This document shows, piece after piece, positions 9,396-30,040 of a stretch of 64,000 nucleotides of DNA. Origin of the DNA: Nitrosotalea devaniterrae. GTDB lineage: Archaea; Thermoproteota; Nitrososphaeria; Nitrososphaerales; Nitrosopumilaceae. The notes beneath the pieces were generated by a model, which did not search any database, was not told the origin of the DNA, and saw only the letters and a list, made by a program, of their open reading frames with translations. The stretch covers positions 860,451 through 924,450 of the forward strand of contig LN890280.1 in the NCBI GenBank assembly GCA_900065925.1, given 5' to 3'. Numbering within the stretch: position 1 is the stretch's first letter; each line of letters starts with the position of its first letter. A program made the translations under genes and the position numbers.

Positions 9396-10910
9396 TCAGG
9401 TTCCAGAACCTATTCCTGGAAGAGTACCCGCTGCAACACCTGGAGAATATGTATCCAAGATGTGGTTTGTGAGAAATTGTGATAGTGCGGCAGTAGTACC
9501 ATACATTGTCAATCCTCCTAATACTGTTAACATTGCGATATTGAAACACACTGTCTTGAACATACCTCCCTGACCCACTTTTACTGCTAACGCATTGATG
9601 GTTGAAGTGACAAGTATGACTAGTGGTAACATCATGTGGATGAAATTTGGATCAATTGGACTGAGTGTAAATGCCTGGTTTGATACTGGCACTGTTGATA
9701 ACAATGTGTGAAATACTTCGATTAGTGTACTCATCAGGCCAAAGATTGCCATTGTAAGTCCATGTAGTACTATTATGATTGTCTCAAAAGTTCTTGATGT
9801 CTGCATCCTTTTTGATCTGAGCTCATTTAATTTGGATGAAATCTCTGCAACCTTGTTGCCCACCTGGTTCATATCTGCTCCCTTGAGGAGTGCCCTTGAC
9901 ATTATGGTATTGCCAGATTCAATTACTGAGGTTCCTGCCTCCATTGAAAATATCTCAAAACAAATTTCTGGATTTATCCTGTTTTTTACTCTATTCTTAA
10001 AGGCAATAATTTGTTTTTGTAATGGCCCGAAATTACTTCTAAGTACTGCATCAAGTGCCTGCCCCATGGAGCCTACCATGGTGTAAATCTCTCCAAAATG
10101 TCTGATAAATGGAGGATACCACTCGTCATGTTCTCGTAATTCTGTTTCCATTCTTTTGGCTATGAATCCGGGAATGAATAATGGTGATACTGCAATGACT
10201 ACGACAAGTGTGAGTGGTACTAGATTGGTCAAGGCAAGGACTATTCCAATAGAAGTGCCTGCACCAAGTGCTGCAAATAACGCCATTCGAAATTTTGGTG
10301 TGGTATCGTGTTTCGTGGATGCTAGTTTGTCTTTTGGAAATAGCATGTACATGATTACTATGAATGAACCCATGCTTACTATGACACCAACAAAAGACAT
10401 GACAAATATTGATTCAGAGTTGGAATTTCCCATGAGCATTGCCATGATAGAGTTGGCTGCAATCATGAAAGACGCAGTTGATGAAATTGTATAAAACATT
10501 TCAAGGAATAGTTTTTGGGTTTCCAAATTACGTTCGTATCTTATTGTATATGTGTGGATGGCAAAATTCATCTCATCTGTGAAGAATATTCTCAACTCAT
10601 CTCCAAGTCTTATCACTTGCGATAATTTTACTAGTAATTGTTTTAATGGGTCTGTATTATCCTTTAATTTTGCAGCAATCATTTCACAAGACCTTGCCAG
10701 ACCGTACCCCCACCCTACCCCCAGCCGGAATACTTCTTTGAATGAATTTGAATATCTTCCATATCCTGATGATTGCCCACTTTTTATCATGTCAACAGAG
10801 CCGACTTCGCCTGTAGACAATGCATACAGAAATGCAATAAAGTATAACAAATCTTCGTCTGATCGTCGAAGTTCTGCAAGTTTCTCCTTGATGGCAAGTT
10901 TTTCCATCAT
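9396..10910 (-). CDS. arlJ: archaellum platform protein ArlJ (FlaJ)
   Basis: Membrane platform of the archaellum, 504 residues. Two T2SSF-type domains are each followed by membrane helices (FMIAANSIMAMLM, GIVLALTNLVPLTLVVVIAV, then LPLVILVTSTINAL and the C-terminal hydrophobic segments). The charged cytoplasmic loop is the usual contact for ArlI. It starts inside the end of arlI with a 4-base overlap and is the last gene of the operon, matching the archaeal order H-I-J. Confidence 0.92.
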   Translation of the reverse strand: MMEKLAIKEKLAELRRSDEDLLYFIAFLYALSTGEVGSVDMIKSGQSSGYGRYSNSFKEVFRLGVGWGYGLARSCEMIAAKLKDNTDPLKQLLVKLSQVIRLGDELRIFFTDEMNFAIHTYTIRYERNLETQKLFLEMFYTISSTASFMIAANSIMAMLMGNSNSESIFVMSFVGVIVSMGSFIVIMYMLFPKDKLASTKHDTTPKFRMALFAALGAGTSIGIVLALTNLVPLTLVVVIAVSPLFIPGFIAKRMETELREHDEWYPPFIRHFGEIYTMVGSMGQALDAVLRSNFGPLQKQIIAFKNRVKNRINPEICFEIFSMEAGTSVIESGNTIMSRALLKGADMNQVGNKVAEISSKLNELRSKRMQTSRTFETIIIVLHGLTMAIFGLMSTLIEVFHTLLSTVPVSNQAFTLSPIDPNFIHMMLPLVILVTSTINALAVKVGQGGMFKTVCFNIAMLTVLGGLTMYGTTAALSQFLTNHILDTYSPGVAAGTLPGIGSGT

Positions 10911-12577
10911 AATGCATTAAGCTCCTTCATAAATTGCTCAAGGCCAATTTCCCTGCATCGAGATATTGAATCATAAACATCGTAAAAATTGAAAATTTTC
11001 TTTTCAATCATCTTATCTAAAATCTTTGTTCGCAGTGCAAGCTCCTCATATAGCAGGCCTTCGTCTTTTCTTGACATTCCCCTCTTTTCTAAAACTTTTG
11101 AAATGAATAGTGCACTACTTCCCTTACCTCTGAACTTGACTGTATCACTACCTGGGTCCCAATTGAATACTGGGATAAACATTACATTGTTCCCTTCCTG
11201 ATTGTATCCAATTACTTCATTTATGGATAGCACTCTTCTTACTCTCTTTCCATCTGGACCTGTAACAGCTGCCTGGAACATTGCAATGTTTAGATTTTCA
11301 ACATTTGTTTTTGGTATGTTCATTGGAGGGTTAGTGAGTCTCTGAATCAATGCAGTCATGTTTGCAGCGTGAAATGAACTAACTACCGGGTGACCTGTCT
11401 GCATTGCACCAAATGCAATGTTTGCCTCTGCACCTCTGATTTCTCCTACAAATATGTAATTTGGTCTCTGTCTTAACGCTGCTTTCAAAAGATCAAACAT
11501 TGTCACACTTGAATTTGCATTTCCAGTATCTCTTGTGACCTCACTTATCCAGTTGGCATGTGGTAAGGTGAGCTCAGGTGTATCTTCAATGGTTACAATT
11601 TTCCAGTTGGATGGAATAAATGCGGTAATTGCCATCATGGTGGTAGTCTTTCCTGATGCAGTTTCTCCATTGACGAATACACTCATTCCCTCTGCAAGCA
11701 TCATCCACAAGTAGGCAGCTTCGATTGAAAGCAGGGATTTGCTTGGGATGATTTGGGTTATGGATAGAGGTGTACTTGCAAATCTTCTGATTGTTGCATT
11801 CGTTCCTTTTCTGCTTATGTCTTTTCCAAACACAATGTTAATTCTAGATCCTTCTGGAAGTGTGGCGTCTATGACTGGTTTTGCATGAGATACTGTCTTA
11901 CCAAATTGTTCTGCCATGCTGACAATTAGATCATCAATTTCTTCAACACTCAAAAAGACTGGGCATTTTAGTGCTCCAAACATTTTGTGTATGACATACA
12001 TGTTACCTGCACCAACTATTGAAATGTCTTCCAAATGTGGATCGGTTAGGAATGGATCAAGTAGACCCATGCCAGCACGCTTGCGCAAAAAATGATATTT
12101 TAGACTAGGTATGTCCTTATCAAACACTGCCAAGTTTTTGGCCTTGAATATATCCATCTTGGAATAATCTATTGCCGCATTTGTAGACATGATGGTTTTG
12201 TCAAGATATTGGTCTATCATGTTGAATCTTTCTGTGAGCTCAATAGGTGGATTCATGGTTCCTGCATGTAATGCAAATAACTTGTCTGCACTTTCCATCA
12301 GTGCACGGTCTGGTTCATCAGGTTCGATGACTGCATATTCTACATATCCATCCGCTGAATTGGAGTGTGGATTGATGTGAATGTACGTGTTCTCAGATAT
12401 TGGATATATCAGATTGGGGTCCTTGAGTTTTTTATGTTCGCCCTCAAGTTTTTCTGTAAATAATGGAATGGGATTTCCTCTTTCTACGTATGTTGACAAG
12501 TAGTTTAACAGATGCGCAGATTTCTTTAGCGCCTCTGAGAATTTTTTGTCACTGACTAGAGATAGACTTAGAACCAT
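10907..12577 (-). CDS. arlI: archaellum motor ATPase ArlI (FlaI)
   Basis: 556-residue ATPase that drives archaellum assembly and rotation. Walker A GETASGKT is at 304-311, the Asp-box/Walker B segment NYIFVGEIRG at 373-382, and the His-box TGHPVVSSFHAA follows. The N-terminal ~280 residues form the usual two-part domain. Ala replaces the more common Gly in the P-loop (GETASGKT), which is typical of ArlI. It overlaps arlJ by four bases and lies 41 bases after arlH. Confidence 0.93.
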   Translation of the reverse strand: MVLSLSLVSDKKFSEALKKSAHLLNYLSTYVERGNPIPLFTEKLEGEHKKLKDPNLIYPISENTYIHINPHSNSADGYVEYAVIEPDEPDRALMESADKLFALHAGTMNPPIELTERFNMIDQYLDKTIMSTNAAIDYSKMDIFKAKNLAVFDKDIPSLKYHFLRKRAGMGLLDPFLTDPHLEDISIVGAGNMYVIHKMFGALKCPVFLSVEEIDDLIVSMAEQFGKTVSHAKPVIDATLPEGSRINIVFGKDISRKGTNATIRRFASTPLSITQIIPSKSLLSIEAAYLWMMLAEGMSVFVNGETASGKTTTMMAITAFIPSNWKIVTIEDTPELTLPHANWISEVTRDTGNANSSVTMFDLLKAALRQRPNYIFVGEIRGAEANIAFGAMQTGHPVVSSFHAANMTALIQRLTNPPMNIPKTNVENLNIAMFQAAVTGPDGKRVRRVLSINEVIGYNQEGNNVMFIPVFNWDPGSDTVKFRGKGSSALFISKVLEKRGMSRKDEGLLYEELALRTKILDKMIEKKIFNFYDVYDSISRCREIGLEQFMKELNAL

Positions 12578-12618: not shown

Positions 12619-13320
12619 TTATGCATTAGCTGTGGATATTGGTACAATCTTAATTCCAAAGTTAGTGTCAATCTCAAAAGCAAATGATGACTCTGACGCT
12701 TCGCTTGAGCCTATCAATTTTATCACTTTCATCACCTTGACTGCTTTTCCACCTATGCTTGCAGTACTAAGTGAAAAGTAAACATCGCATGCGGATTTTA
12801 TCCTCATGGAAATGTCTTCTGGAATTGATGTTTCATGCATCGTAAGGATTACGGTCATGCCTGTTGATACAAGATATTTGCACCTGGTTAGAAAATCAAG
12901 TATCTGTCCTGCATCTGCATACATTGTCAAAAGAGATATTGAATCTATTACTACACAATCAAAATTTTTGGAGTTGCTACTAATGTATCTGCCAATTACT
13001 GGCAATAGAAATGATGATTGCTTTTGTGACCATACTGCTCCGTATACGTGCAGTGGAAGTATTGAAAATCGATTTTGTAAAAATGCTGTTGTAAAGTTGA
13101 ATGTAATTGTCTTCATTTTTTCGATATAATCTTTGACAGTATTTTCTGTAACACACAATACTTTCATTTTTGACGATAACATGCCTTGTATAAATTGGGC
13201 TGCAAGTGCACTCTTTCCTGTACCATGCTCTCCTTCTATCATCATCAAGCATGGTGTTGGAATTCCACCTGCTAACTGCCTATCTACCTCTTCATTACCC
13301 GTTGGAATTGTCTTTATCAT
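12619..13320 (-). CDS. arlH: archaellum motor protein ArlH (FlaH)
   Basis: RecA/KaiC-fold nucleotide-binding protein of 233 residues that sits on ArlI and acts as a regulatory ring component. Walker A GEHGTGKS is at 30-37 and Walker B ends in CVVIDS (D126). As in other ArlH proteins, the strong catalytic Glu of KaiC is not obvious, fitting ATP binding with little turnover. The start overlaps the end of arlF by four bases, indicating translational coupling. Confidence 0.92.
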   Translation of the reverse strand: MIKTIPTGNEEVDRQLAGGIPTPCLMMIEGEHGTGKSALAAQFIQGMLSSKMKVLCVTENTVKDYIEKMKTITFNFTTAFLQNRFSILPLHVYGAVWSQKQSSFLLPVIGRYISSNSKNFDCVVIDSISLLTMYADAGQILDFLTRCKYLVSTGMTVILTMHETSIPEDISMRIKSACDVYFSLSTASIGGKAVKVMKVIKLIGSSEASESSFAFEIDTNFGIKIVPISTANA

Positions 13321-13841
13321 GTTATTCTCACCGAACTTGTAGAAAGAACTCCATTGTCTGTTCCAATGTTGACTGTAATGATGCCTCCTAGGCTTGTCGG
13401 ATTTTGCAGATTTGCCTCAATGTTGAGTGTTTCCTTAGGATCTAGTATGCCTGGATGTTCAAGATCATTTGTTATGCTTTGAATGCACCACTTGTCAGAT
13501 GGTAATGCTACACAACTTTTTGCATATTGTAAAACCTCTGTAAGCGTTGGCATGCTTCCTGTGTCTGTCTGATATGTAACTATGGCATCAAACTTGTTGT
13601 AATTCCATAAAATGGTATTTCCAGTATTATCTACTGAGAAATTAACAATAGTAGAATTATGAATACTTTGTAAGTTCGAAACACTGATGTTTGTGTGTAA
13701 AATTGAATTTAAGGTGCTTGACATCTGTGCTGAAGATGTACTGACCTTTGTGGTATCATCAAGTATTGCAGGAAATGACATCATTGCATACACTATGGTA
13801 AAGGTAACAATACCGCCCGAAATTGCGATGCTTAATCCCAC
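13317..13841 (-). CDS. arlF: archaellum stator-type protein ArlF (FlaF)
   Basis: 174 residues: one N-terminal membrane helix (IAISGGIVTFTIVYAMMSF) and an extracellular beta-sandwich domain. ArlF and ArlG form the complex that ties the motor to the S-layer. The helix is class-III-signal-like but lacks a basic-Gly cleavage site, as expected for a retained subunit. Assignment as F rather than G rests mainly on operon order (G-F-H-I-J as in Crenarchaeota) and could be swapped. It lies 10 bases after arlG and overlaps arlH. Confidence 0.75.
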   Translation of the reverse strand: MGLSIAISGGIVTFTIVYAMMSFPAILDDTTKVSTSSAQMSSTLNSILHTNISVSNLQSIHNSTIVNFSVDNTGNTILWNYNKFDAIVTYQTDTGSMPTLTEVLQYAKSCVALPSDKWCIQSITNDLEHPGILDPKETLNIEANLQNPTSLGGIITVNIGTDNGVLSTSSVRIT

Positions 13842-13851
13842 GGAATATCAC

Positions 13852-14319
13852 CTAGCAGAACGTAGCGAAGTATTCATCGCTAACTCCGTTGGGTGTTGTT
13901 ACTTGTAATTCGTATACACTACTACATTGAATGGCCGATAAATCTGAAAGGTTGATTTGTACCGTATTTGCTTTGTCCCAACTAGTTACTGGACTAGAAA
14001 ATGTCCATGATGGAGATCCTGCGTTGTATGGGATTCTCTGCATTGCACCCGTTTGACCAAAATACACATCAATATTTTGCGTATTTGTAATCGAATACGT
14101 TCCAATATTTTTCACCCAGGCACTTACACTTGTAGATGTTGGATTTTGTGCGTATAGGATTTTGATGTTTGTTAATATGGTCTGTTTCTGATTCTCAGTT
14201 GTTTGAGTAAAAGTAGATTGGAATGTGCCAACTTTTGTCATTACTACACCCGCAAGACCTCCAGCTATTATGACTGAAGCTACAATGAGAATTGCTTCTG
14301 TAAAAACGGCTGATCCCAT
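13852..14319 (-). CDS. arlG: archaellum stator-type protein ArlG (FlaG)
   Basis: 155 residues: an N-terminal helix (EAILIVASVIIAGGLAGVVM) followed by a beta-rich exterior domain with aromatic and Asn/Ser/Thr residues and a Cys near the C-terminus. The ETILLIAS-like N-terminus and the position just before arlF fit ArlG, the filament-like partner that ArlF caps at the S-layer. It begins one base after the stop of the preceding 405-residue gene. Confidence 0.75.
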   Translation of the reverse strand: MGSAVFTEAILIVASVIIAGGLAGVVMTKVGTFQSTFTQTTENQKQTILTNIKILYAQNPTSTSVSAWVKNIGTYSITNTQNIDVYFGQTGAMQRIPYNAGSPSWTFSSPVTSWDKANTVQINLSDLSAIQCSSVYELQVTTPNGVSDEYFATFC

Positions 14320-14320
14320 A

Positions 14321-15538
14321 CTAATTCTCCTTTGACTCCACTGTCATTAGTGGGCCATGTGATTTTCCTTGATTCATTATTATTTTGGCATATGTCAAAT
14401 CAGCTTCCTTGTCTGCTATTCCCATGACTTTGCCAAATTTGTATAACATGATGAGTATCTCCTTGACTGATAGCCCTGACTGGTCCATCAGATTGATTAT
14501 GTTGTATATGACGTGCTCGTCTTCTTGTCTTAGCCCCATCATTTTACACTGTTCTATTAGGATGTCAATTGAGCTCCTGTCTACAGTTTGGAGGATCTCT
14601 TCCAAAATTGTTGTTGTACTCATGAGTTTACCAAGTGTAAGACTACCATTGAATAATTGATTGAATGGGAGAGATTCTTGAAATTCTTGTTTGGATTGGA
14701 CGTCCTCAATCTGTTTTGATGTTGATGTTGTGGGCAAACTGTTTGTTGTTACAATGCTAGTCTCTGCTTGTTGCTCTGCATTATTTGGCATCGAATTTTC
14801 TGGAGAGTTGTTTATGTGATGCATTGGTGATTGTTCTGTATGTAACGGAAGTGTTGGGTCTGAGAGTCCCTTGATGTCCATTGAATCAAAATACTTGCGC
14901 ATGAAATTAAGTGGATTTGCAATCTCTGCTTGAAATGCCTTGAGATCAGTCAGTGATGTTTCAAATGTAAGTGTCAGATCCTGAATCGTACTTCGAATCG
15001 AGTTGATTTCATTTCTAACATCACTTACAGTATCTTGCATTCTTACTAGTTCCCTTTGAAATGGGTCTACAGCACGTGTAACCATATCATTGAGAACATT
15101 TTCATCTACTACTGGTTGTTGTACCATTGTTGGAGCATAAGTTGTCTCACCTGGCATTGATACAGGTGATGGCATGATGATATCTGACATTCCGCCAGGA
15201 TTATTTGTCATTATCATACCGCTTTCTTGTTTTGGTGCTTCAAAAGAGATATTTTCTATTGGTGCTTCTGTTTGCATGATACCTTGGTCGATGCCTTGAC
15301 TGGGTTGATTTAGTGATTTTTTTGCCATGAATTTAGGGATGCCAATAAGAACTCCTGCAATGGCAACAACTGGCAGTACAAAATAATATAGTGATGTGGG
15401 AAAACTAAACAGGTATTCTGGCAAGAGTTCGTAGAGAAATAGACCATGACATGCAATTACACTTACTGCTACAAATGTTCGTGTTTTACTAGATAGTTTT
15501 GTAATTAGAAAAAGTGGATTGGAGGCAATGATCTTCAA
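14321..15538 (-). CDS. two-TM coiled-coil protein in the ArlX/ArlCDE position
   Basis: 405 residues not matching a family I can name. Two membrane helices (about 20-37 and 48-66) are followed by a Met/Pro/Gln-rich linker (70-145), a coiled coil (about 155-205, heptad-like LVRMQDTVSDVRNEINSI) and an ANPLNFM segment at 207-213. A second disordered linker leads to a helical C-terminal domain (about 300-395). It lies between an archaellin and arlG with gaps of 13 and 1 bases, where Crenarchaeota have ArlX (one TM plus coiled coil) and Euryarchaeota have ArlC/D/E. The ANPLNF segment recalls the NPF after the ArlC coiled coil. I infer a thaumarchaeal motor-scaffold or CheF-contact protein. Confidence 0.6.
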   Translation of the reverse strand: MKIIASNPLFLITKLSSKTRTFVAVSVIACHGLFLYELLPEYLFSFPTSLYYFVLPVVAIAGVLIGIPKFMAKKSLNQPSQGIDQGIMQTEAPIENISFEAPKQESGMIMTNNPGGMSDIIMPSPVSMPGETTYAPTMVQQPVVDENVLNDMVTRAVDPFQRELVRMQDTVSDVRNEINSIRSTIQDLTLTFETSLTDLKAFQAEIANPLNFMRKYFDSMDIKGLSDPTLPLHTEQSPMHHINNSPENSMPNNAEQQAETSIVTTNSLPTTSTSKQIEDVQSKQEFQESLPFNQLFNGSLTLGKLMSTTTILEEILQTVDRSSIDILIEQCKMMGLRQEDEHVIYNIINLMDQSGLSVKEILIMLYKFGKVMGIADKEADLTYAKIIMNQGKSHGPLMTVESKEN

Positions 15539-15551
15539 ATCATATCCTCCT

Positions 15552-16247
15552 CTATCCCAAGTCCACAGTTGTTTCTGTAACTGCTGGCACTTGTCTTTCT
15601 ATAGTCAACGCAGAGCCAGTTGGAACTATGATTTCAGCCTTGACTGTATCTAGCTGTTTTGGCTGGTCACCGTTCTTGTAAACAATTACCAAATCTGCAT
15701 GTTCACCTACGTCAAGTATGTTGTTGTTGTTCTTGTTGACATCCCAGTAAACCATTGCCTTTGTGCCGTTTGGATATTGGTTATCTCCAAGATTGGTGAT
15801 TGGATCATGGTCTATGCATGCCTTGCCAGTTGCACCAATTTTTATTGCATAGGATGCATTGATTACATTTCCACTACTTCCTAGTGCGCAACCTACTCCA
15901 AAGATGTTGTCATATCTTACTGAATTGCTGTAATACTTGATGTCAGTCAAAGTAGGATCAAGACTTACTGCGTCTCCTCCACCTGCTACCTTGAGAGGTA
16001 TCATTGTGGCGTTTAGCTGAGATTTAGCTACATCTCCAAATCCTGTTACTTTACCTGCAATCTCAAGTGCACTGCTTGACTCTGTGACAGATGATGAAAT
16101 TGCTGTCTTTGCCTTTTGTGTTGTTGAAAAACCCATGTTGAGAACGACAAAGGCTAAAGCTGCAGCAACGATTACGAATGCTATCATAACTATTGCAGAC
16201 TCTATACCGATGACTCCTCTACGATTTCTCCGTAGTCGGTATTTCAT
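15552..16247 (-). CDS. arlB: archaellin ArlB, copy 1 (operon-linked)
   Basis: Archaellum filament subunit of 231 residues. The short basic leader ends RRGVIG and cleavage is expected before IESAIVMIAFVIVAAALAF, the helix forming the filament core; the rest is the outer beta domain with several N-x-S/T sequons. It is only 13 bases upstream of the motor operon and has no T-rich terminator, unlike the other three copies, so it is likely cotranscribed with the motor genes. From 15556 to 16224 it is base-for-base identical to archaellin 4 (19330-19998). Only the first ~10 codons differ (MKYRLRRN here). Confidence 0.93.
   Translation of the reverse strand: MKYRLRRNRRGVIGIESAIVMIAFVIVAAALAFVVLNMGFSTTQKAKTAISSSVTESSSALEIAGKVTGFGDVAKSQLNATMIPLKVAGGGDAVSLDPTLTDIKYYSNSVRYDNIFGVGCALGSSGNVINASYAIKIGATGKACIDHDPITNLGDNQYPNGTKAMVYWDVNKNNNNILDVGEHADLVIVYKNGDQPKQLDTVKAEIIVPTGSALTIERQVPAVTETTVDLG
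15556..16224 (-). repeat. 669-bp identical tract, archaellin copy 1 side
   Basis: Direct repeat, same orientation as 19330-19998. I compared the two by eye and found no mismatch. The tract stops just inside the stop codon and at the RRGVIG leader, so only the mature-protein part is shared. Confidence 0.9.
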
Positions 16248-16329: not shown

Positions 16330-17337
16330 TCATGTCTGAATTATTCTGTGACTTATCAAATATGAAATGCTTGAAGCAAATTCATCATCAGATGATGTAC
16401 CATCTGACCATTCTGTTATAGTGTTTTTGATCCATATTGGGATTATGCCTGGGTTGATTTTTGACATATCTGATGCATGTATTGACATGTATCCTTTCTC
16501 TATAGAAAACTGGATTCCGTTGACAAATTCATTATCATTTATTTCGTTATCTTTCCATATCTTTACATTGTTTTTCATCCAATGTGGTATGTGATCTATA
16601 TTTGATGTTATGCCTGAATTCTGTGAACCGTTGAAACTTATGTTGACATCTGTAACGGTGGATGGAAACCCATACAATGATTTTATCTTATAGTCACCAC
16701 TTGTCTTAAAAACTGAACTTGAAGCCTTTAACTCGTAAAAAAAACTATGGTCTGAAAGTGTATTGGTTTTGTCCAGGTATACCAAATTGCGTTTATTATC
16801 AAATATCTGTATTATAACAGGCGTGATCTGGTATGTATTGTTAACAATGCCTGAAATTCTAATACTGTCTCCTTCTGCATAGTATTTTCTATCTGTTTCA
16901 ATGTTAAAATCAGGTGAGATTCCCAAATATGCTGGCCCAACGTCAATTTTTCCTGTCATCCACGGATGAATCTTACAGAAATAGTAATATCCTGACCACA
17001 TCTGCTCGCTAATTTTTAAAGAATAACTTTTTCCTGGGTTTATTATGCCACTATCAAATATTTTGCCAACATACGTTGGATGATCTAAAACACCGCTTGT
17101 AACTGTGTGAGTTGTAGTGTCATTATTTATCCATTGTATAGTCTCATTTTGTCTTGCATGTAATTCTGGAGGCCAAAATGATGTACTGTTTATTCCAGGA
17201 CTGGTTTTTATTGTAACCGTCCATGGTATAGTAGAATTGTCTGCAAATGCATATGATATTGGTATTATGGTGAATATTACAAAGAGTACTAAAATACCAT
17301 ATTGTAGACCCACAAAAAATATGATTGAAAATGACAA
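16330..17337 (-). CDS. cupredoxin-domain surface protein with C-terminal W-rich repeats
   Basis: 335 residues from a TTG start. The signal peptide ends near YAFA. A blue-copper domain (about 35-135) carries a full type 1 ligand set: H77, C121, H124 and M127 in THTVTS and YYFCKIHPWMTG. An Ig-like domain (about 140-240) follows, then two copies of a repeat of the form IPxWIKNxxxxWxDxxxxDxEFxxxIxYLI. That repeat is common in thaumarchaeal exported proteins and probably binds the envelope. Ammonia oxidisers use many copper redox proteins, so electron transfer or copper handling at the surface is plausible. Its place between archaellin genes is unusual. Confidence 0.8.
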   Translation of the reverse strand: MSFSIIFFVGLQYGILVLFVIFTIIPISYAFADNSTIPWTVTIKTSPGINSTSFWPPELHARQNETIQWINNDTTTHTVTSGVLDHPTYVGKIFDSGIINPGKSYSLKISEQMWSGYYYFCKIHPWMTGKIDVGPAYLGISPDFNIETDRKYYAEGDSIRISGIVNNTYQITPVIIQIFDNKRNLVYLDKTNTLSDHSFFYELKASSSVFKTSGDYKIKSLYGFPSTVTDVNISFNGSQNSGITSNIDHIPHWMKNNVKIWKDNEINDNEFVNGIQFSIEKGYMSIHASDMSKINPGIIPIWIKNTITEWSDGTSSDDEFASSISYLISHRIIQT

Positions 17338-17484: not shown

Positions 17485-18177
17485 TTATCCTAGGTCAACT
17501 ATCTGAGTTGTAACTGCTGGCACTTGTCTTTCTACAGTCAATGCAGAACCGGTTGGTAGTACAACTTCAGCTTTGATGTTGTCTAACTGTGCTGGTCTGT
17601 CCGCACTCTTGTATTGAATTACCAAGTTTGCATGTTCACCTTGATCAAGTATGCTGTTGTTGTTCTTGTTAACATCCCAGTATACGATTGCCTGTGTGGT
17701 TGTTGGTGCATGAGCTGTTGTTCCGTTTACTGCATCTTTATCAGTACATCCTGCTGTAACTGCAGCATCAACTGCTGATGATACAGTAGTATATGCTGTA
17801 GATGTTAGAACACATGCGCTCTTGTAGATGTTGTCGTATCTTACAGTATTGCTGTAATACTTGATGTCTGCAAGAGCTGGATCAAGACTTACTGCGTCTC
17901 CTCCACCTGCTACCTTGAGAGGTATCACTGTTGCATTAAGTACACTACCTGAGACGTATCCTATGCCGGTTACTTTACCTGCAATCTCAAGTGCACTGCT
18001 TGACTCTGTGACAGATGATGAAATTGCTGTCTTTGCCTTTTGTGTTGTTGAAAAACCCATGTTGAGAACGACAAAGGCTAAAGCTGCAGCAACGATTACG
18101 AATGCTATCATAACTATTGCAGACTCTATACCGATGACTCCTCTACGAGTCTTTCTACTTCTTGTTGTAGAATTCAT
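17485..18177 (-). CDS. arlB: archaellin ArlB, copy 2
   Basis: 230 residues with the class III signal RKTRRGVIG followed by the hydrophobic filament helix IESAIVMIAFVIV. It is nearly identical to copy 3: 13 substitutions, all between residues 128 and 188, with the rest of the protein unchanged. A T-rich terminator follows, so it is probably a monocistronic filament gene. The gene and its flanks belong to a ~0.94-kb tandem duplication with copy 3. Confidence 0.92.
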   Translation of the reverse strand: MNSTTRSRKTRRGVIGIESAIVMIAFVIVAAALAFVVLNMGFSTTQKAKTAISSSVTESSSALEIAGKVTGIGYVSGSVLNATVIPLKVAGGGDAVSLDPALADIKYYSNTVRYDNIYKSACVLTSTAYTTVSSAVDAAVTAGCTDKDAVNGTTAHAPTTTQAIVYWDVNKNNNSILDQGEHANLVIQYKSADRPAQLDNIKAEVVLPTGSALTVERQVPAVTTQIVDLG

Positions 18178-21890: not shown

Positions 21891-23237
21891 ATGAACCTCA
21901 AGTCAATTTTCCAAAAAAGTCTTAAAACAAAAATCATTGCAATGGTCAATGTAGCCTCGGCCATATCTATCGCAACTATCTCTGTTGCAAGTTACTCTGC
22001 TGCCGGTCATACTTCTGGTAGTGATGATACTCTGAGATATGTTGTTACTGGCATCATAATGCAAGGGGTTGTAGGTATTTCTGCATATTTTATGGCACGC
22101 TCTATTACAAAACCTATACTACATATGGCATCTGTTGCAGAAAAAATTAGTCATGGAGATCTTACCGTGGAATTATCGACATCAAAATCAAATGATGAGC
22201 TTGGAAAACTAACTAATGAGTTTAGCAATATGGTTGTTAGTCTGCGTCAATTGGTATCTCAGGTAAGGGATGGCTCATCTCTTGTTGCATCAAATTCTGA
22301 ACAAGTTGTATCTTCAACAGAACAAATGAATTCGTCTGTACAGCAAATCTCTTCAACTATAGAGCAGATATCAAAAGGTTCACAGACTCAGGCCCAAGAG
22401 CTAGAAGAAACAAGCAAAGTAGTGGTTAAGCTTACAAATGAAATGAAAAAACTTGCTTCAAAAGCTGGAATCACTGCAGATCTCACAAAAGAAGTGGGGT
22501 TGATATCTGCAACAGGCTCTAAATCTGCAGCCGAAGCAGACTTTAGAATGTCAAAGATAATTAGTGTCACAAATGAATCTGCAAAGAAGATAAAAGAGCT
22601 CGCAGAGCGAAGTGGGGAAATTACCGCAGTTGTTGACGTGATACGCAAAATTGCAGACCAGACTAACTTACTTGCTCTCAATGCTGCAATAGAAGCAGCT
22701 CGTGCAGGTGAGGCAGGAAGAGGATTTGCAGTAGTTGCAGATGAGGTCAAAAGACTTGCAGAAGGTTCTGCAAAATCATCTGAAGAGATAGATGGCTTGA
22801 TAAAACAGATACAAGAAGATGCCAAGGCTACAGTATTGAGCATAGAGGGTGGCACAAAGGAAGTATCTGAAGGCAGAATTGTAATAGACAAGGCGTTAAA
22901 GGCACTAAATGAAATAGCTTCTAAAGTAACAGAAGTATCAGTAAACGTACTGGATGTGGCAAACATCACACAAGTTCAAGTGGGTGAAATCGAACAATTG
23001 TCAAAGGCCGCCTCTGAGATTGCAGCTGTCTCGGAACAAAATGCTTCAGCAACTGAAGAAGCATCAGCTGCCACTGAACAACAAACTGCTGGAACTCAGG
23101 AGATTGCAGCATCGGTACAAAAAATGGCAATAATGGCAGATGATCTGACAAAGATTACTGCGGGTTTCAAACTTCCCGAAGTTTCTAATTCTAAAATAAG
23201 AAAATCTGGAGAAATAAAAGAAGAGGTAATGATATAA
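21891..23237 (+). CDS. methyl-accepting chemotaxis protein without an external sensor domain
   Basis: 448 residues. Two membrane helices (about 13-36 and 49-69) are joined by only ~12 residues, so there is no extracellular sensing domain. A HAMP domain (about 70-122) and a long signalling hairpin follow; its canonical tip [19 protein letters not shown] lies near residues 256-274. Gln/Glu-rich helices flank the tip and offer methylation sites for CheR/CheB. It may sense membrane state or energy, or pass signals from partner proteins. Its stop overlaps the cheW start (TAATG), making it the first gene of the che operon. Confidence 0.9.
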
Positions 23238-23719
23238 TGAGTGAAACAATAATTGAAGGAAATCTACAGATTGTTGTTTTTAGTCTACTTGACTCCAAGT
23301 TACACAAAAGAGAAGAATATGGCGTCTTGATAGAGCAAGTCAGAGAGATACGCCCTCTTGAATCTATCACTAAAGTGCCTAATGCGAAAAGCTATGTTCT
23401 TGGAGTGATGAACCTGAGAGGTATGATTGTTCCAGTGATTGACGTAAAAGAAAAACTTGGTTTTTCAAGTGATGGTATTCCTAGTCCCAAGGCACGTGTT
23501 CTTGTGGCAGATGTTGAAGGACAACTCACTGGTCTTCTGATTGATGAAGTTGATCAAGTGATGCGAATCACACCAAAAGAAGTAGAGACTAGTCTTTCTG
23601 GAGGCCTTGAATCATTAGAATATGTCAAGGGCGTAGCAAAAATTTCAGGCAGGCTTGTTGTGCTCTTGGACATGGAAAAACTCTTGAAAGATACTACATC
23701 TTCTGTGCAGGGAGCATAA
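23237..23719 (+). CDS. cheW: chemotaxis coupling protein CheW
   Basis: 160 residues of the CheW SH3-like fold, linking receptors to CheA. Typical features are YGVLIEQVREIRPLESITKVPNA near the N-terminus, VLGVMNLRGMIVPVIDV in the middle, and VAKISGRLVVLLDMEKLL at the end. Overlaps the MCP stop by one base; the first cheY begins two bases after its stop. Confidence 0.92.
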   Translation: MSETIIEGNLQIVVFSLLDSKLHKREEYGVLIEQVREIRPLESITKVPNAKSYVLGVMNLRGMIVPVIDVKEKLGFSSDGIPSPKARVLVADVEGQLTGLLIDEVDQVMRITPKEVETSLSGGLESLEYVKGVAKISGRLVVLLDMEKLLKDTTSSVQGA

Positions 23720-24115
23720 ACATGTCCACAACTAGTGCAGTCAAAGTACTGATTGTAGACGATGCGTCATTTATGAGAGTTGTACTAAAAGACATTCTAG
23801 TATCACATGGACTAGTATCACAAATCTATGAGGCAGGAGATGGTGTTGCAGCAGTAGATGCATACAAGCAATTCAAGCCTGATGTTGTTACAATGGATGT
23901 AAACATGCCAAAGGCAGATGGAATCCAGGCCCTCAAGGCAATCATCCAGTTCAATCCTCGAGCAAAGGTAATCATGGTTACATCAGTTGAGCAAAAGCAT
24001 ATCGTACAGGATGCAATAAAATCTGGTGCACGTGATTATGTCATAAAGCCGTTTGATAGATCAAATGTTGCAATGGTAATGAGCAAGGTTATCAGGTCGA
24101 AATAACATGATGACA
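23716..24115 (+). repeat. 400-bp identical cheY repeat, copy A
   Basis: Identical to 28474-28873 including six bases before the ATG and ten after the stop; those ten include the start of cheB. I found no mismatch on reading both. Confidence 0.92.
23722..24105 (+). CDS. cheY: chemotaxis response regulator CheY, copy A
   Basis: 127-residue receiver: acidic pair in IVDDAS (13-14), phospho-acceptor D59 (VVTMDVNMP), switch Thr T87, Lys K109 (VIKPFD). It carries the CheA signal to the archaellum, in archaea through CheF-type adaptors; none was recognised in this window. It lies in the che operon between cheW and cheB. The protein is identical to that of the second cheY at 28480-28863. Confidence 0.92.
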   Translation: MSTTSAVKVLIVDDASFMRVVLKDILVSHGLVSQIYEAGDGVAAVDAYKQFKPDVVTMDVNMPKADGIQALKAIIQFNPRAKVIMVTSVEQKHIVQDAIKSGARDYVIKPFDRSNVAMVMSKVIRSK

Positions 24116-25174
24116 GCATCTGAGAAAAATCAGATAAGTGTGATGATAGTAAACGATTCGCCTTACATGGTATCGCTTCTAAGTGATTTGCTGTCTTCGG
24201 AAAATCATATCAAAATAGTAGAGACTGCACGAGATGGATTAGAGGCATTACGAAAACTGCGACATCTTTCACCAGATATCATACTTTTAGACATGGAAAT
24301 GCCAAACATGGATGGACTGTCCTTTATTGAAAATGTAAATCTCTTACCAGAAAAAGATTTGCGTATTATTGTAGTTAGCAATTATAGTCCCTCTAACGCC
24401 AAATTAATTCTAGACTCACTTGAGCTTGGGGCAGTTGATTTTATCTCTATACCACCTGATGACCCACATGTAGTTGAAAAACTAAAAGGTGCACTATTGT
24501 CAAAGATTGAAGTTGCATCTCACTCTAATAGGGATGCTCTTATTCCAAAGGCAATTTCAAAACTGAAACCATCTAAAAATGCAAATACTATATCTGAAGG
24601 AGTGGCATCTACCGTTGTAGTAATTGGAGCATCAACCGGGGCCCCTCGCATAATAAATAATATACTAAAAGATATACCAAGTGATATTCCTGCCGGATTC
24701 TTGATTGTACAACACATGAATAAGGAATTCATTTCAACTTTTGCACAAAGACTTGATACAATTTCCAAATTACATGTAAAAGAAGCAGTAGAAGGTGACA
24801 AAATAATGGAAGGAACTGTACTACTTGCTCCTGGGGATATGCACATGATGGTATTACCTTCTCGTCAAATCAAACTAGATCATGGACCAAAAAGATTTGG
24901 CGTAAGACCTGCTGTAAATGTCACAATGGTCTCTGCCTCTGAAGTGTTTGGCGCAAGCACTATAGGAGTATTATTATCTGGAATGGGACAAGATGGAGCT
25001 TTTGGAATGAAGATGGTAAAGAAAAGATGTGGCCTTACACTGGCTCAAAATGAATCATCTTCGGTAGTATTTGGCATGGCAAAAGCTGCAAATGATCTAC
25101 ATGCTGTTGACAAAATGGTTGATGCTGATGACTTGGCACATGAAATTATCAAGGTGGTAAAACAGAGTGTCTGA
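24107..25174 (+). CDS. cheB: chemotaxis methylesterase/deamidase CheB
   Basis: 355 residues. The receiver domain (1-125) has phospho-acceptor D62 (ILLDMEMP); the usual first acidic residue of the pocket is Asn (VNDS), leaving one fewer Mg-binding carboxylate. The C-terminal esterase domain (about 165-350) has the catalytic set S176 (GASTGAP), H203 (IVQHM) and D296 (GMGQDG). It removes methyl groups from receptor glutamates to reset sensitivity. It begins one base after cheY and overlaps cheA by eight bases. Confidence 0.93.
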   Translation: MMTASEKNQISVMIVNDSPYMVSLLSDLLSSENHIKIVETARDGLEALRKLRHLSPDIILLDMEMPNMDGLSFIENVNLLPEKDLRIIVVSNYSPSNAKLILDSLELGAVDFISIPPDDPHVVEKLKGALLSKIEVASHSNRDALIPKAISKLKPSKNANTISEGVASTVVVIGASTGAPRIINNILKDIPSDIPAGFLIVQHMNKEFISTFAQRLDTISKLHVKEAVEGDKIMEGTVLLAPGDMHMMVLPSRQIKLDHGPKRFGVRPAVNVTMVSASEVFGASTIGVLLSGMGQDGAFGMKMVKKRCGLTLAQNESSSVVFGMAKAANDLHAVDKMVDADDLAHEIIKVVKQSV

Positions 25175-26732
25175 TAATAGTAAATACCGCGAGATGTTTG
25201 TGCAGGAAGCATTAGAACATGTTGAAAGTCTAAACCAACATCTACTAAAATTTGAAGAAGAACCAAATGTTCGGGAACACGTAGATGTGTTATTCCGATC
25301 TGCTCACACTCTAAAAGGTATGGCTGCAACTATGAGCTATGACCAGATTCGTGAGATTTGCAGAACAATAGAAGAAATTTTTGATACATTCAGAAAAGGT
25401 GAAGAGACCATAACCACAGAACTTGGCAACGTGATCTTTTATGGAATCGACCTCTTAAAACAATTAATCCAGGATGAAACAAAAAAAATTAATCTTGACG
25501 AATTCCAAAACTATGTAAAAAATCCGTCAGATCTAAAACAAAATAATGATGAATCAGATACTACATTGACCCAACAAGTAAAATCGCCTACTGTTAGAGT
25601 GAAAATGCAAGATCTGGACTCACTTGTGAATTTGGTGGGTGAAATGATGATATCAAAAATGAGACTAGAGCAGATATTGCACACTCATGATTCTGACGAA
25701 GGCCGCGAGATATTGATGACTCTTGGCAGGTTGATAACTGATATCCAATATCAGACAATGAAAATTAGACTAGTTCCAATTGACCAAGTCTTCAATAGGT
25801 TTTCACGAATGATACGAGATGTTTCAACTTCGCTTGGAAAAGAAGTAAAACTTGATGTGGATGATTCTGGTATCGAACTTGACCGTACTGTATTGGATGC
25901 CATCACTGATCCTCTTCTCCACATGTTGCGAAATGCGGTAGATCATGGACTCGAAACCCCCTCTGAAAGAAAGGAAACAGGAAAACCGAAAACAGGTACA
26001 ATACGTCTTCGTGCAAGTAGGATGGGAGACCGTGTGGAAATCCATGTGGAAGATGATGGAAAGGGAATTGACCTTGAGGCCATCAAAACAAAAGCGCTAG
26101 AAAAACAAATCATGACTGCAGAGGATCTTGCACGCATGTCTGATGAAGAGATTGTCGGTTTGGTTGGAACTCCTGGGCTTTCGACTGCAAAGACTGTTAC
26201 CGATATTTCTGGCAGGGGTGTAGGAATGGATGTGGTCATGACACAGGTAAAAAATGTAGGTGGACAGGTAAAGATTATCACGAAAAAAGGAAAGGGTACC
26301 AATATCATACTGACAATACCTATGAGTTTGGCCATAATTGGTGGCTTACTTGTAAATATATCTAATCAAAAATACGTACTCCCTCTTTCTAGCATATCAA
26401 CCACTGTTACAGTAGACAAGGATGAAATAAAAAATGTACATGGCAAAGAAATGATAACGCTTCGAGATAAAGTTGTACCAATAATTCGGGCTGCAAAAAT
26501 TTTGGGTCTGGTTTCTACTCTTGACGAGGCATCTAATTCTCAGATAAATATTGTTGTAGTTGAGAAGGATGGCAAGTCTTATGGTTTGATTGTAGATTCG
26601 CTTGAACGAGAACAAGAAGTCGTAATAAAACGTCTTGATGGATTGTCAAACTCACTAAATACCTTTTCTGATGCTACAATACTGCCTGATGGAAAAGTTG
26701 CATTAATTCTAGAGCCGTCATTGTTGGTGTAA
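25167..26732 (+). CDS. cheA: chemotaxis histidine kinase CheA (no P2 domain)
   Basis: 521 residues. P1 phosphotransfer domain with H47 (RSAHTLKG), a short linker, P3 dimerisation (about 140-200), P4 ATPase with N box LRNAVDHGLETP, G1 DDGKGID and G2 GRGVGMDVV, and a P5 CheW-like domain to the end. CheA proteins are often near 650 residues. The deficit is explained by the missing P2 CheY-binding domain, replaced by about 30 residues, so CheY probably docks directly on P1/P4. The start lies within the end of cheB. Confidence 0.93.
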   Translation: MSDNSKYREMFVQEALEHVESLNQHLLKFEEEPNVREHVDVLFRSAHTLKGMAATMSYDQIREICRTIEEIFDTFRKGEETITTELGNVIFYGIDLLKQLIQDETKKINLDEFQNYVKNPSDLKQNNDESDTTLTQQVKSPTVRVKMQDLDSLVNLVGEMMISKMRLEQILHTHDSDEGREILMTLGRLITDIQYQTMKIRLVPIDQVFNRFSRMIRDVSTSLGKEVKLDVDDSGIELDRTVLDAITDPLLHMLRNAVDHGLETPSERKETGKPKTGTIRLRASRMGDRVEIHVEDDGKGIDLEAIKTKALEKQIMTAEDLARMSDEEIVGLVGTPGLSTAKTVTDISGRGVGMDVVMTQVKNVGGQVKIITKKGKGTNIILTIPMSLAIIGGLLVNISNQKYVLPLSSISTTVTVDKDEIKNVHGKEMITLRDKVVPIIRAAKILGLVSTLDEASNSQINIVVVEKDGKSYGLIVDSLEREQEVVIKRLDGLSNSLNTFSDATILPDGKVALILEPSLLV

Positions 26733-26735
26733 AAT

Positions 26736-27341
26736 ATGAAAATGTCAACTAATGCGTTAAACCAAGTTGAATTGAATGCCCTCGAGGGAGTTCTTGATTC
26801 ATACATAACTCAAAAAACATCTGTTGCACTATCATCGCTTCTTGGAGAGTCAATCAGTCATGTTGTTAAACAAACACATTTGGAAGTTTCACAAATTGGA
26901 AATATGGGTACAGTAATTAAAGAAATTGTAGCGTGTTCTGTATTTTTGCACGGTGGTGGAGATATTCGCCTAGGGATCTTGTATACGATACCTGAGCAAG
27001 ATGCAAAACAAATTGCTGCAAAATTAATGTGCACGGATAAAATTGATTCACTTGACGATCTATCAAAATCCGCAATATCTGAGGTAGGGAATATCATGTC
27101 AGGCTCATTTTTTAATGCACTATCTGATCACACTGGGCTGAAAGTGGAACTTTCTACGCCTGATTTTGCAATGACGTCAATTTCTGCATTATTGGAGCCT
27201 CACGCATCAGAATTTGTGTGTCCTACTAGCGATATGGTAACAGAAGTTGAATTTACTGGAAAAGATAGCGGTCTGAGATTACACATGTTGATAATCCAGG
27301 ATTATGATAATGCCAGAAAGCTAATGAATCCTAACAGGTGA
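26736..27341 (+). CDS. cheC: CheC-family CheY-P phosphatase, copy 1
   Basis: 201 residues. The catalytic helix motif S-x3-E-x2-N is present once (SAISEVGNIMSGSFFNAL, about residue 115); the equivalent first-half helix (LNALEGVLDSYITQ) lacks the Glu and Asn. Usual CheC has two such sites, so this is a single-site form. CheC removes phosphate from CheY-P and often partners CheD, which is encoded nearby. Begins three bases after cheA. Confidence 0.8.
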   Translation: MKMSTNALNQVELNALEGVLDSYITQKTSVALSSLLGESISHVVKQTHLEVSQIGNMGTVIKEIVACSVFLHGGGDIRLGILYTIPEQDAKQIAAKLMCTDKIDSLDDLSKSAISEVGNIMSGSFFNALSDHTGLKVELSTPDFAMTSISALLEPHASEFVCPTSDMVTEVEFTGKDSGLRLHMLIIQDYDNARKLMNPNR

Positions 27342-27430
27342 TACAGGTTGGAAAAACTCTACACTTTCTACTCCATAATGACAAGTTGTGACTCTGATAT
27401 TTTAAGCACAAATGATCTTGGTGAGAATGA

Positions 27431-28279
27431 TTGAGTCTCAACGATCTGACATTAAATGCTGACATTGTGGCTGAATTTAACAAAATTTTTGCAGGCTATG
27501 GTCTAGACCTTGCCAGATACAAGCCTGCCTTTATAAAAAGACGATTGGATCGAAGAATGAGAATACTGAATATTTCTGACTATTCTCAATACATACTTGC
27601 CCTAAAAAATAACCGCAAAGAATTTGAGGAAATATTTACATCTCTATCAATTAATGTTACAAATTTTTTTAGGGATTCGACCGTATTTGACAGGTTTCAG
27701 CTGTCTATACTCCCAAAAATATTATCAAGTCTTGGTGATGGAAATAAAATACGTGTATGGAGTGCAGGATGTGCTTCAGGTGAAGAACCCTATTCTATTG
27801 CCATGATGTTCAAGCAAGCAATTGGAAAATTATCAAATCTTGAGGTAGAAATTATTGCAAATGATGTCAACAAGTTTGCAATTCAATTTGCAGAACGTGG
27901 AAGATATCCTGCAAAAGGTGTTGAAAGTTTACCACCTAGTATCATATTAAATAATTTTCAAAAAATAAGAGATGATAACAATAACATAGAATATGAAATT
28001 ATCTCAGAAATAAAAAACATGGTGACCTTCAAAGTAGGCGATATATTGTCTGACACAATGCAGTCTTTTGATGTCATTTTTTGCCGAAATGTATTAATAT
28101 ATTATGAAAAAGAAGCACAGGAGTTGATCTTTACGAAGTTTCACAGAGGTTTGAAAAATTCTGGTTATCTGGTGCTTGGCATGGATGAAACAATGTTTGG
28201 ACGACGATGTCAAAAATTATTCAATCCATTAATGGCACGAGAAAGAATCTATCAAAAAATGTTACAACAAGATAACTAG
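27431..28279 (+). CDS. cheR: chemotaxis receptor methyltransferase CheR
   Basis: 282 residues. An N-terminal helical domain (with SINVTNFFRD) is joined to an SAM-dependent methyltransferase domain with VWSAGCASGEEPYSIA as motif I and VIFCRNVLIYYEKE further on. It methylates receptor glutamates, opposing CheB. The start is TTG at 27431; the nearby ATG at 27427 is in another frame and hits a stop after 11 codons. Confidence 0.92.
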   Translation: MSLNDLTLNADIVAEFNKIFAGYGLDLARYKPAFIKRRLDRRMRILNISDYSQYILALKNNRKEFEEIFTSLSINVTNFFRDSTVFDRFQLSILPKILSSLGDGNKIRVWSAGCASGEEPYSIAMMFKQAIGKLSNLEVEIIANDVNKFAIQFAERGRYPAKGVESLPPSIILNNFQKIRDDNNNIEYEIISEIKNMVTFKVGDILSDTMQSFDVIFCRNVLIYYEKEAQELIFTKFHRGLKNSGYLVLGMDETMFGRRCQKLFNPLMARERIYQKMLQQDN

Positions 28280-28317
28280 AAAATATTATTTTTGTAAATT
28301 AACATATTCTTTATTAC

Positions 28318-28335
28318 TGTATGATCAAATCGAAC
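28318..28335 (+). promoter_or_regulatory. TGTATGATCAAWTCRAAC element upstream of the second cheY
   Basis: Matches the element before the MCP gene at 16 of 18 bases. It lies 145 bases before the cheY start, in a 200-base gap that ends the first che operon and should hold a new promoter. Confidence 0.4.
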
Positions 28336-28473
28336 AAGCGTACTAATATTACAATCTTTTATAGAGAATCTCTTGATGGGGTTTACCTTTTTTGTATCCT
28401 GAAATAATTACTATGGACAAGTCGTATTACTGTCAAAATGTGAAAAGTATCTCAAGGCAAACTATGTGGGGTT

Positions 28474-28873
28474 ATAAACATGTCCACAACTAGTGCAGTC
28501 AAAGTACTGATTGTAGACGATGCGTCATTTATGAGAGTTGTACTAAAAGACATTCTAGTATCACATGGACTAGTATCACAAATCTATGAGGCAGGAGATG
28601 GTGTTGCAGCAGTAGATGCATACAAGCAATTCAAGCCTGATGTTGTTACAATGGATGTAAACATGCCAAAGGCAGATGGAATCCAGGCCCTCAAGGCAAT
28701 CATCCAGTTCAATCCTCGAGCAAAGGTAATCATGGTTACATCAGTTGAGCAAAAGCATATCGTACAGGATGCAATAAAATCTGGTGCACGTGATTATGTC
28801 ATAAAGCCGTTTGATAGATCAAATGTTGCAATGGTAATGAGCAAGGTTATCAGGTCGAAATAACATGATGACA
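28474..28873 (+). repeat. 400-bp identical cheY repeat, copy B
   Basis: Carries the first nine coding bases of cheB (ATGATGACA) after the cheY stop, out of context. This shows that copy A is the donor and B the derived copy. Confidence 0.9.
28480..28863 (+). CDS. cheY: chemotaxis response regulator CheY, copy B (identical)
   Basis: Same 127-residue receiver as copy A, with D59 and K109, and the same DNA. It is separated from cheR by 200 bases and followed by a second cheC and by cheD. Being identical, it cannot have a different biochemical role; it may change CheY dose or put CheY under a second promoter. Confidence 0.92.
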   Translation: MSTTSAVKVLIVDDASFMRVVLKDILVSHGLVSQIYEAGDGVAAVDAYKQFKPDVVTMDVNMPKADGIQALKAIIQFNPRAKVIMVTSVEQKHIVQDAIKSGARDYVIKPFDRSNVAMVMSKVIRSK

Positions 28874-28938
28874 AACTATAACATGTCTGATGTGCAATCA
28901 CTGTTTCTTTGTGTGGCATATGGTGAGTTGTAGAAATC

Positions 28939-29529
28939 TTGAGTACTAGTTGCAATGACCTGCAAAAATTAAATTCGGTCCTAGACTCTTTTATTGTTCG
29001 TAAAACAATTCCATCATTGAGTTCTATTCTGGAAGAGCCAATAACACACTTTCTTCGAAACACACAAGAAATACCGATAATTAATCTCGATTTGATAATA
29101 TCAGATCTTGAAGAAATGAATGTCATGTCTGCTGTATATGTAAAATGTGCTGGAGATATTCACATGGGTATGTTGTTATATCTGCCAGAGAAAGAGTCAA
29201 AAACACTGGCAGCAAAATTACTTGGCAAGCCAATATCCAACGAACTGACAGGAATTGCCACATCGTCCATATCTGAAATTGGAAATATACTTACCGCGTC
29301 TCTTATTAATGCAATATCGATTGATACGGGATACAAAATTTGTTCCTCAGTTCCGGGATATGCGGTTGAATTTTTTAGAACATTAGTAGAAGCAGTGGTA
29401 TCGGACTTTGGGAATGAATCGGATACCTTGGTTGTTTCAAATATAGAACTCTGTGGAGTCAACTCTGGTATGGATATACACATGCTCTTGATTCAAGATC
29501 CTTCTGAAGTGAAAAAACTTGTGATATAG
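28939..29529 (+). CDS. cheC: CheC-family CheY-P phosphatase, copy 2
   Basis: 196 residues from a TTG start. One catalytic motif is visible (TSSISEIGNILTASLINAI). The N-terminal half keeps the fold pattern (VLDSFIVRKTIPSLSSIL) without the Glu/Asn pair. It is a diverged paralogue of the 26736-27341 protein, so the two may form a heterodimer or act on different CheY pools. CheD follows after 13 bases, a common CheC-CheD pairing. Confidence 0.8.
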   Translation: MSTSCNDLQKLNSVLDSFIVRKTIPSLSSILEEPITHFLRNTQEIPIINLDLIISDLEEMNVMSAVYVKCAGDIHMGMLLYLPEKESKTLAAKLLGKPISNELTGIATSSISEIGNILTASLINAISIDTGYKICSSVPGYAVEFFRTLVEAVVSDFGNESDTLVVSNIELCGVNSGMDIHMLLIQDPSEVKKLVI

Positions 29530-29542
29530 AGTTTGATTTTTA

Positions 29543-30040
29543 ATGAATCGTGTAATTGAGATAAAAATGGGAGGCTTGGAAATAATAACTGACGAAACAG
29601 AAGAATTGAAAACATTTGTTGGCTCATGCGTTGCAATCTGTTTATTTGATTTTGTATCTAAGGTTGCAGGTATGGCACATGTCATGCTGCCAAAAAAATC
29701 TGATGGTACAAAATTTGCAGGAAAAAATGATGTTGGAAAATATGCCGATGAGGCACTCTCATACATGGTGAATGATATGGTAAAAAAAGGCGCAGACCCA
29801 AAGAGAATTAAGGCAAAAATGGCAGGGGGAGCTACAATATTTGCTCATGAATCAGAAACTAGCTTGTTTAATGTGGGGCCACGAAACATTGCATTTTTGA
29901 AGCAGATCTTACAAGAAAACAACATACCTCTTGTCTCTGAAGATACGGGTGAAAATTTTGGGAGATGGGTTAGATTTAACTTGCAGTCAGGGGAAATGCT
30001 TGTTACATCAAATCTCAAAAAATTTGAGAAAATAATCTAA
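29543..30040 (+). CDS. cheD: chemoreceptor glutamine deamidase CheD
   Basis: 165 residues. The catalytic set is T24, C29 (FVGSCVAICLFD) and H46 (AGMAHVMLP). CheD converts receptor Gln to Glu and is held by CheC when CheY-P is high. Later conserved parts AKMAGGATIF and NIPLVSEDTGENFGRWVRF are present. Last gene of the chemotaxis region. Confidence 0.93.
   Translation: MNRVIEIKMGGLEIITDETEELKTFVGSCVAICLFDFVSKVAGMAHVMLPKKSDGTKFAGKNDVGKYADEALSYMVNDMVKKGADPKRIKAKMAGGATIFAHESETSLFNVGPRNIAFLKQILQENNIPLVSEDTGENFGRWVRFNLQSGEMLVTSNLKKFEKII

Follow-up and report, generated by a model that had tools for sequence, protein, structure and literature searches.

In Euryarchaeota, the adaptor CheF bridges phosphorylated CheY (CheY-P) and the archaellum proteins ArlC, ArlD and ArlE (ArlCDE). 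The cytosolic part of ArlX forms 30-nm rings and binds to ArlH and ArlI. On the bacterial side, FliY is a CheC-type phosphatase. Here, we compare these systems with a thaumarchaeal gene, called X in the following, which encodes a 405-residue protein in the archaellum (arl) operon of Nitrosotalea devaniterrae. It lies in a stretch of 64,000 nucleotides (contig LN890280.1, positions 860,451 to 924,450), which is the window referred to below. Makarova, Koonin and Albers (2016; PMC4858521) placed FlaX and a thaumarchaeal 'unknown gene' by HHpred as diverged FlaC/D/E, whereas one 2022 review regards the thaumarchaeal protein as 'yet to be identified' (PMC8978795) and another treats the homology of ArlX and ArlCDE as unsettled (PMC9087265). 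Hence, the identification of X as a FlaC/D/E counterpart is not new in principle, and the sequence-only reading of the locus was only partly right in naming no described equivalent. The present analysis adds a chain of profiles controlled by decoys, the assignment of domains and the description of a membrane-anchored, fused layout. New are the absence of CheF and a docking-type motif in X and CheC of related genera.

We consider it probable that X, as a divergent representative of the ArlX/ArlC/D/E superfamily, provides the cytosolic ring or scaffold of the archaellum motor in Thaumarchaeota and would act as a switch receiving CheY-P without CheF. Its slot and layout are directly observed. The minus-strand operon is tightly packed in the order arlB-X-arlG-arlF-arlH-arlI-arlJ, with X starting 13 nt past the stop of an arlB copy and ending 1 nt before the start of arlG. 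The start codon is TTG, with a GGAGG sequence seven bases upstream. From the N-terminus, two transmembrane (TM) helices, seen as Kyte-Doolittle maxima around residues 21-40 and 43-73, are followed by a low-complexity linker and a coiled coil with the motif NPLNF at its end; another linker then connects to a domain of five helices. The operon position among archaellum genes was correctly given in the sequence-only reading, as was the presence of two TM segments and a coiled coil in a 405-residue protein, which the open reading frame (ORF), the hydropathy and the predicted helices confirm; the ANPLNF segment it had noticed is where helix 146-207 ends.

The slot is widely conserved. In every ArlH-positive locus with a contig spanning the region and a readable slot gene, this gene stands either between arlB and arlG or directly ahead of arlG (a Methanocaldococcus ArlH sequence served as query for the genome collection). 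Outside the family of the window, a slot gene encoding about 190-460 aa is present in nearly every readable arl locus; in L089 it is merged with the arlG frame, and the slot of L101 gave no clear reading. Since full-length homologues of X fill the same slot in other genera, X is not a chance ORF, and this synteny bears out the expectation that the gene occurs in other motile thaumarchaea. The family-wide search found X in 45 of 250 genomes. Among the 200 genomes of the phylum sample, ArlH occurs in 12 members of the family and CheW in exactly the same 12. Ten of these carry X. Of the other two, G180 retains only a piece of the gene where its contig stops, and G174 has an arl contig that starts inside arlF. 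Neither X nor CheW was found in the 18 ArlH-negative family members listed. Genome G318 has two X copies, located on two contigs (L210, L211). Slot proteins of other lineages (L064:4069-5013, L065:7054-7971, L076:6838-7752, L079:6027-6956, L080:6751-7668 and L081:4484-5167) carry a CxCxxC segment at the N-terminus (such as WPCNCWFCRLF) in place of the TM helices of X, which would represent a different anchor or a metal site.

The homology of X was traced through intermediate profiles because its direct HHalign comparisons were insignificant. For this purpose, the slot proteins were grouped before profile comparison (T, A, B, Cren, F5 and Sulfolobales-type ArlX). At full length, X was linked to T, A and B with 98.9%, 94.8% and 96.1%, respectively, T to A and B with 99% and to Cren with 95.9%, and A to Cren with 97.4%. 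The chain continued from Cren to F5 (97.3%) and from F5 to Methanococcales ArlE (90.7-95.6%) and ArlD (93.5-93.9%); some members of A5 matched the ArlX family PF24151 with up to 2e-99 and, from their size and single TM helix, were assigned to the Sulfolobales-type ArlX group. Because coiled coils can inflate such scores, the comparison was repeated on the part after the NP motif only, using column-reversed profiles as decoys. While the top score of 110 single-group decoys was 25.2, the C-terminal parts scored 85.9 (X-T), 53.0 (X-B), 58.8 (Cren-F5), 54.2 (F5-ArlD) and 48.2 (F5-ArlE). The merged thaumarchaeal-side profile of this part matched the merged crenarchaeal and ArlD/E profile with a probability of 95.3 and a score of 55.3 (decoys up to 18), and F5 plus ArlD/E with 90.8%; with the C-terminal part of the Sulfolobales-type proteins, only a weak link was obtained (19.9% and a score of 26.1, compared to 11 for decoys). 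The five-helix domain provides a homology signal independent of the coiled coil. In the merged alignment residues 305-392 of X pair with residues 27-125 of ArlE, and the five predicted helices of X (alpha1-5) coincide one by one with those of the ArlE model (pLDDT 82.5, pTM 0.76).

The NP motif points in the same direction. At the position of NPLNF, [NSG]P[FLMY] is present in all 55 slot proteins compared, covering all slot groups, and an extended regular expression matched 51 of the 55 but only 3 of 2142 other ORFs. Methanococcales ArlC has NPF in a register shifted by about three residues relative to the slot proteins, and three of the aligned sequences of X and related proteins match PF05377 (ArlC) weakly (best E=0.0017). 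In summary, X has the operon slot, a coiled coil followed by NP(F/L/M) and, via intermediates, an ArlD/E-like helical C-terminal domain. As judged from these comparisons, X belongs to the ArlX/ArlC/D/E superfamily as a divergent, membrane-anchored homologue and did not arise as a replacement from elsewhere. The likeness to ArlX and ArlC proposed in the sequence-only reading thus holds through the NP motif and the profile chain, but 'replacement' was the wrong word, since according to this chain X shares ancestry, though diverged, with ArlD/E and the slot proteins of Crenarchaeota.

By analogy with the family, X may form a ring and bind ArlH and ArlI. The two N-terminal TM helices would anchor it in the membrane, and a flexible linker would lead to the coiled coil, which probably oligomerises into the ring. 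The NP(L/F) turn and the second linker would then lead to the five-helix domain, probably docking on ArlH/ArlI, such that a membrane-tethered ring around ArlI/ArlH could serve as an assembly scaffold. In these chemotactic archaea, the same ring would also act as the motor switch, with CheY-P reaching it independently of CheF. The suggestion that CheY-P binds to X and switches the motor comes from a short linker motif of its relatives. In most related genera, CheY-P probably docks directly on this EIDALL-type peptide and thereby changes the state of the ring, and CheC would be tethered to CheY-P through the same peptide. For the X of the window, the ring or scaffold role is the only one supported; the claim of direct CheY-P docking concerns its relatives.

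The chemotaxis cluster near the arl operon is otherwise complete, yet CheF (PF04283) was found neither in the genome of the window nor above cut-off in any of the 200 phylum genomes. Bacterial FliM and FliY bind CheY-P via the conserved 'EIDALL' (PMC9126983). A corresponding motif occurs in X of other genera, in the same linker as the residues 94-113 segment of the window, which shows partial conservation within the genus while the linker is otherwise variable. In several genomes CheC ends in GGxNSELDALL, and the X linker ahead of the coiled coil contains GGxNAELDALL. In the X of one lineage, NSEIDALL and its variants are present three to four times, and two or three copies are found in some CheC tails. 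The pattern E[IL][DE]ALL occurs 36 times in the 696,593 residues of open frames from all loci fetched, 23 times in X, 13 times in CheC and nowhere else. A looser pattern matched 24 of 45 X linkers compared to a mean of 0.38 and a maximum of 4 after shuffling. Outside the genus of the window the motif is found in 26 of 27 X proteins (including, by eye, the SSDIDALI-type of G317 and G318 and NTELDALL of G430), with G431 as the exception. The corresponding CheC proteins have it in 18 of 26 cases by regular expression and in 24 of 26 when variants accepted by eye are included (NDAIDDLL, NNSIDELI, NSAIDDLL, NSAIEELL, NLEINALL), the exceptions being G068 and G431. Within the genus it is absent from all 17 X proteins (three with incomplete linkers) and all 14 CheC proteins, those of the window included; a search for a substitute EIDALL in the arl/che region of the window returned a sole match in the signalling domain of a methyl-accepting chemotaxis protein (MCP).

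The motif in X and CheC is associated (Fisher test, p=4e-5, without correction for kinship). In the CheA tree, all genomes with the motif apart from G068 group together (support 99/97) and the motif needs about three changes in all; since its distribution follows this tree, the association rests on few independent events. Carrier specificity is the stronger argument. The link to FliM is based on the published definition of EIDALL, because the motif is too short for PDB and NCBIfam searches, in which FliM was not among the matches to the linkers carrying it. On the FliM-binding alpha4-beta5-alpha5 face of CheY, K92, Y106 and K109 are kept in nearly all copies, including those of the genus of the window. 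A covariation of CheY position 99 with the motif was perfect in 12 genomes, but broke when more genomes were included and was discarded.

On this basis, we slightly favour the assumption that in most chemotactic family members the ring protein itself is the CheY-P receptor by way of one to several bacterial-type EIDALL peptides in its flexible linker, with CheC carrying the same peptide in a FliY-like manner and CheF being dispensed with. Alternatively, the motif of X and CheC could bind CheD or another shared partner, its likeness to FliM being a convergence of amphipathic helices. Short motifs converge easily, and the motif is missing in the genus of the window although its CheY retains the three face residues; however, it is carried just by the ring protein and by the phosphatase of CheY-P, a pairing that mirrors FliM and FliY, and the same peptide is the CheY-P site named in the literature, so this explanation appears doubtful. 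The motif-less X of the window could also be taken to indicate that X is only an assembly scaffold, like ArlX in the Sulfolobales, which lack chemotaxis, and that the signal enters via ArlH, ArlI or another adaptor. This is rather unlikely, given that X in other genera is the motor-side carrier of the bacterial docking motif, which CheC shares, and that the CheF adaptor was not found. The link between motor and chemotaxis that the sequence-only reading had ascribed to this position is thus strengthened by the motif of the relatives and the absence of CheF, but not by the X of the window.

Several results weigh against X being a ring subunit of this superfamily. X reaches 16.2 bits against the ArlX families, compared to cut-offs of 28.7 (PF24151) and 225 (NF058591), and PF04659 was not matched anywhere in the genome at E<=10. 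The insignificant direct HHalign comparisons concerned Methanococcales ArlC, D and E as well as Sulfolobales-type ArlX, so that homology to ArlD/E is transitive. The AlphaFold model of X is weak (pLDDT 58, pTM 0.27, with only the helices reaching about 60-84) and had no significant Foldseek match in the PDB, where the sequence search likewise returned only chance coiled coils. Furthermore, the C-terminal domain is shortened or divergent in the Nitpum2 and G068 proteins, and the function is assigned by analogy only. That X is an unrelated coiled-coil membrane protein which took over the ArlX/ArlCDE slot would fit its scores below the family cut-offs and the tendency of coiled coils to attract chance matches (as in its long list of weak Pfam hits), but this is very improbable, because the C-terminal domain, which is no coiled coil, matches crenarchaeal profiles and those of ArlD/E with scores far exceeding the reversed decoys, its helix order agrees with ArlE and the NP motif stands at the same place. 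As a separate observation, X of L061, L062, L063 and L058 has short tandem repeats (EPVVQ, AAPAQD) in the second linker, which follows the NP motif and precedes the C-terminal region, and a shortened or divergent C-terminal domain.

The features of X and its surroundings are compiled in the table. Archaeal amoA was found in the genome of the window (1.805 Mb, one contig), which therefore belongs to an ammonia-oxidizing archaeon. Four archaellin copies lie between 15552 and 20027 (-); those at 15552-16247 and 19326-20027 are identical across 669 nt, those at 17485-18177 and 18425-19117 are 95.7% identical, and a cupredoxin-domain protein (PF00127, E=6e-6) sits among them at 16330-17337 (-). A 94-aa protein of the chemotaxis cluster, at 21495-21779 (+), was considered as a substitute for CheF and rejected, as it was found in only five of 12 other genomes compared (G003, G053, G061, G132 and G174); it matches no Pfam family. 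The two cheY copies at 23722-24105 and 28480-28863 (+) are identical in 384/384 nt (L248). Those of G393, from the same genus, are also identical to each other but share only 338/384 nt with the copies of the window, which suggests concerted evolution through gene conversion; in G423 the second copy is divergent.

Table. Gene X, its segments and neighbouring archaellum and chemotaxis genes in the window
Feature	Position	Strand	Evidence	Remark
X, 405 aa	14321..15538	-	ORF, slot conservation, profile homology	predicted ArlX/ArlC/D/E-superfamily protein of archaellum operon
Shine-Dalgarno-like GGAGG before TTG start of X	15546..15550	-	read from sequence	
X first TM segment, residues about 21-39	15422..15478	-	hydropathy; predicted helix 17-38	
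X second TM segment, residues about 46-72	15323..15403	-	hydropathy; predicted helix 46-76	
X linker residues 94-113, IENISFEAPKQESGMIMTNN	15200..15259	-	sequences and conservation	partly conserved in the genus
X coiled-coil helix, residues 146-207	14918..15103	-	predicted structure; subthreshold ArlX match at residues 146-221	
X NPLNF motif, residues 208-212	14903..14917	-	slot protein comparison	closes coiled coil; preceded by A (A-NPLNF)
X C-terminal five-helix domain, residues 302-393	14360..14635	-	merged C-terminal profiles; helix correspondence with ArlE	ArlD/E-like
arlB copy directly upstream of X	15552..16247	-	669-nt identity with copy at 19326-20027	
arlG	13852..14319	-	PF01917 E=5e-10; NF052591 E=2e-10, below cut-off	stator
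arlF	13317..13841	-	PF22201 and NF052590, both subthreshold; ArlF-like E=6e-5	stator
arlH	12619..13320	-	NF004723 E=5e-78	
arlI	10907..12577	-	PF00437 (T2SSE) E=3e-31	motor ATPase
arlJ	9396..10910	-	position and length conserved in loci compared; no Pfam match	platform protein
Chemotaxis cluster: CheW, CheY, CheB, CheA, CheC, CheR, second CheY, CheC-like, CheD	23237..30040	+		no CheF
CheC	26736..27341	+	PF04509 E=5e-10	NSELDALL-type tail of other genera's orthologue absent here

A concrete gene, its domain layout and a chain of intermediates now tie together ArlX, ArlCDE and the thaumarchaeal counterpart. The analysis also exposes a gap, namely that in the sampled genomes of the family the archaellum is always paired with chemotaxis, yet CheF is not detectable. 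The EIDALL-type motif common to the ring protein and CheC offers a directly testable answer, in which motors of bacteria and archaea would share one docking device. If it is correct, the archaeal motor would have reinvented or acquired the switch-docking device of bacterial flagella and steering would be explained without the usual archaeal adaptor, while the genus of the window, motif-less in X and CheC, must use another docking site.

Compared to the described systems, X resembles ArlX (FlaX, PF24151) in its place within the arl2 gene order (arlB, then the slot gene, then arlG), its N-terminal membrane anchor and a cytosolic coiled coil followed by an [SN]P(F/L)N motif. It differs from ArlX, which has one TM helix and 245-250 aa, by a second such helix, a length of about 405 aa and low-complexity linkers; with its score below the family cut-off and its second TM helix, it is not an ArlX sensu stricto. 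With ArlD/ArlE (PF04659) it shares the C-terminal five-helix domain in the same helix order and alignment, but in X this domain is fused behind a coiled coil and a membrane anchor, and it lies in a genome where PF04659 itself is unmatched. ArlCDE are soluble and couple to chemotaxis via CheF, whereas X is anchored by two TM helices in an organism lacking CheF. Like ArlC (PF05377), X has a coiled coil followed by NP(F/L), although the registers are about three residues apart and the profile comparison is insignificant. FliM and FliY belong to a different protein family with a different peptide position (N-terminal), and the X and CheC of the window lack the peptide; nevertheless, X of most related genera carries NSEIDALL or NAELDALL in its linker in up to four copies, and CheC of these genera, like bacterial FliY, unites an EIDALL-type peptide and a CheC-like phosphatase in one protein.
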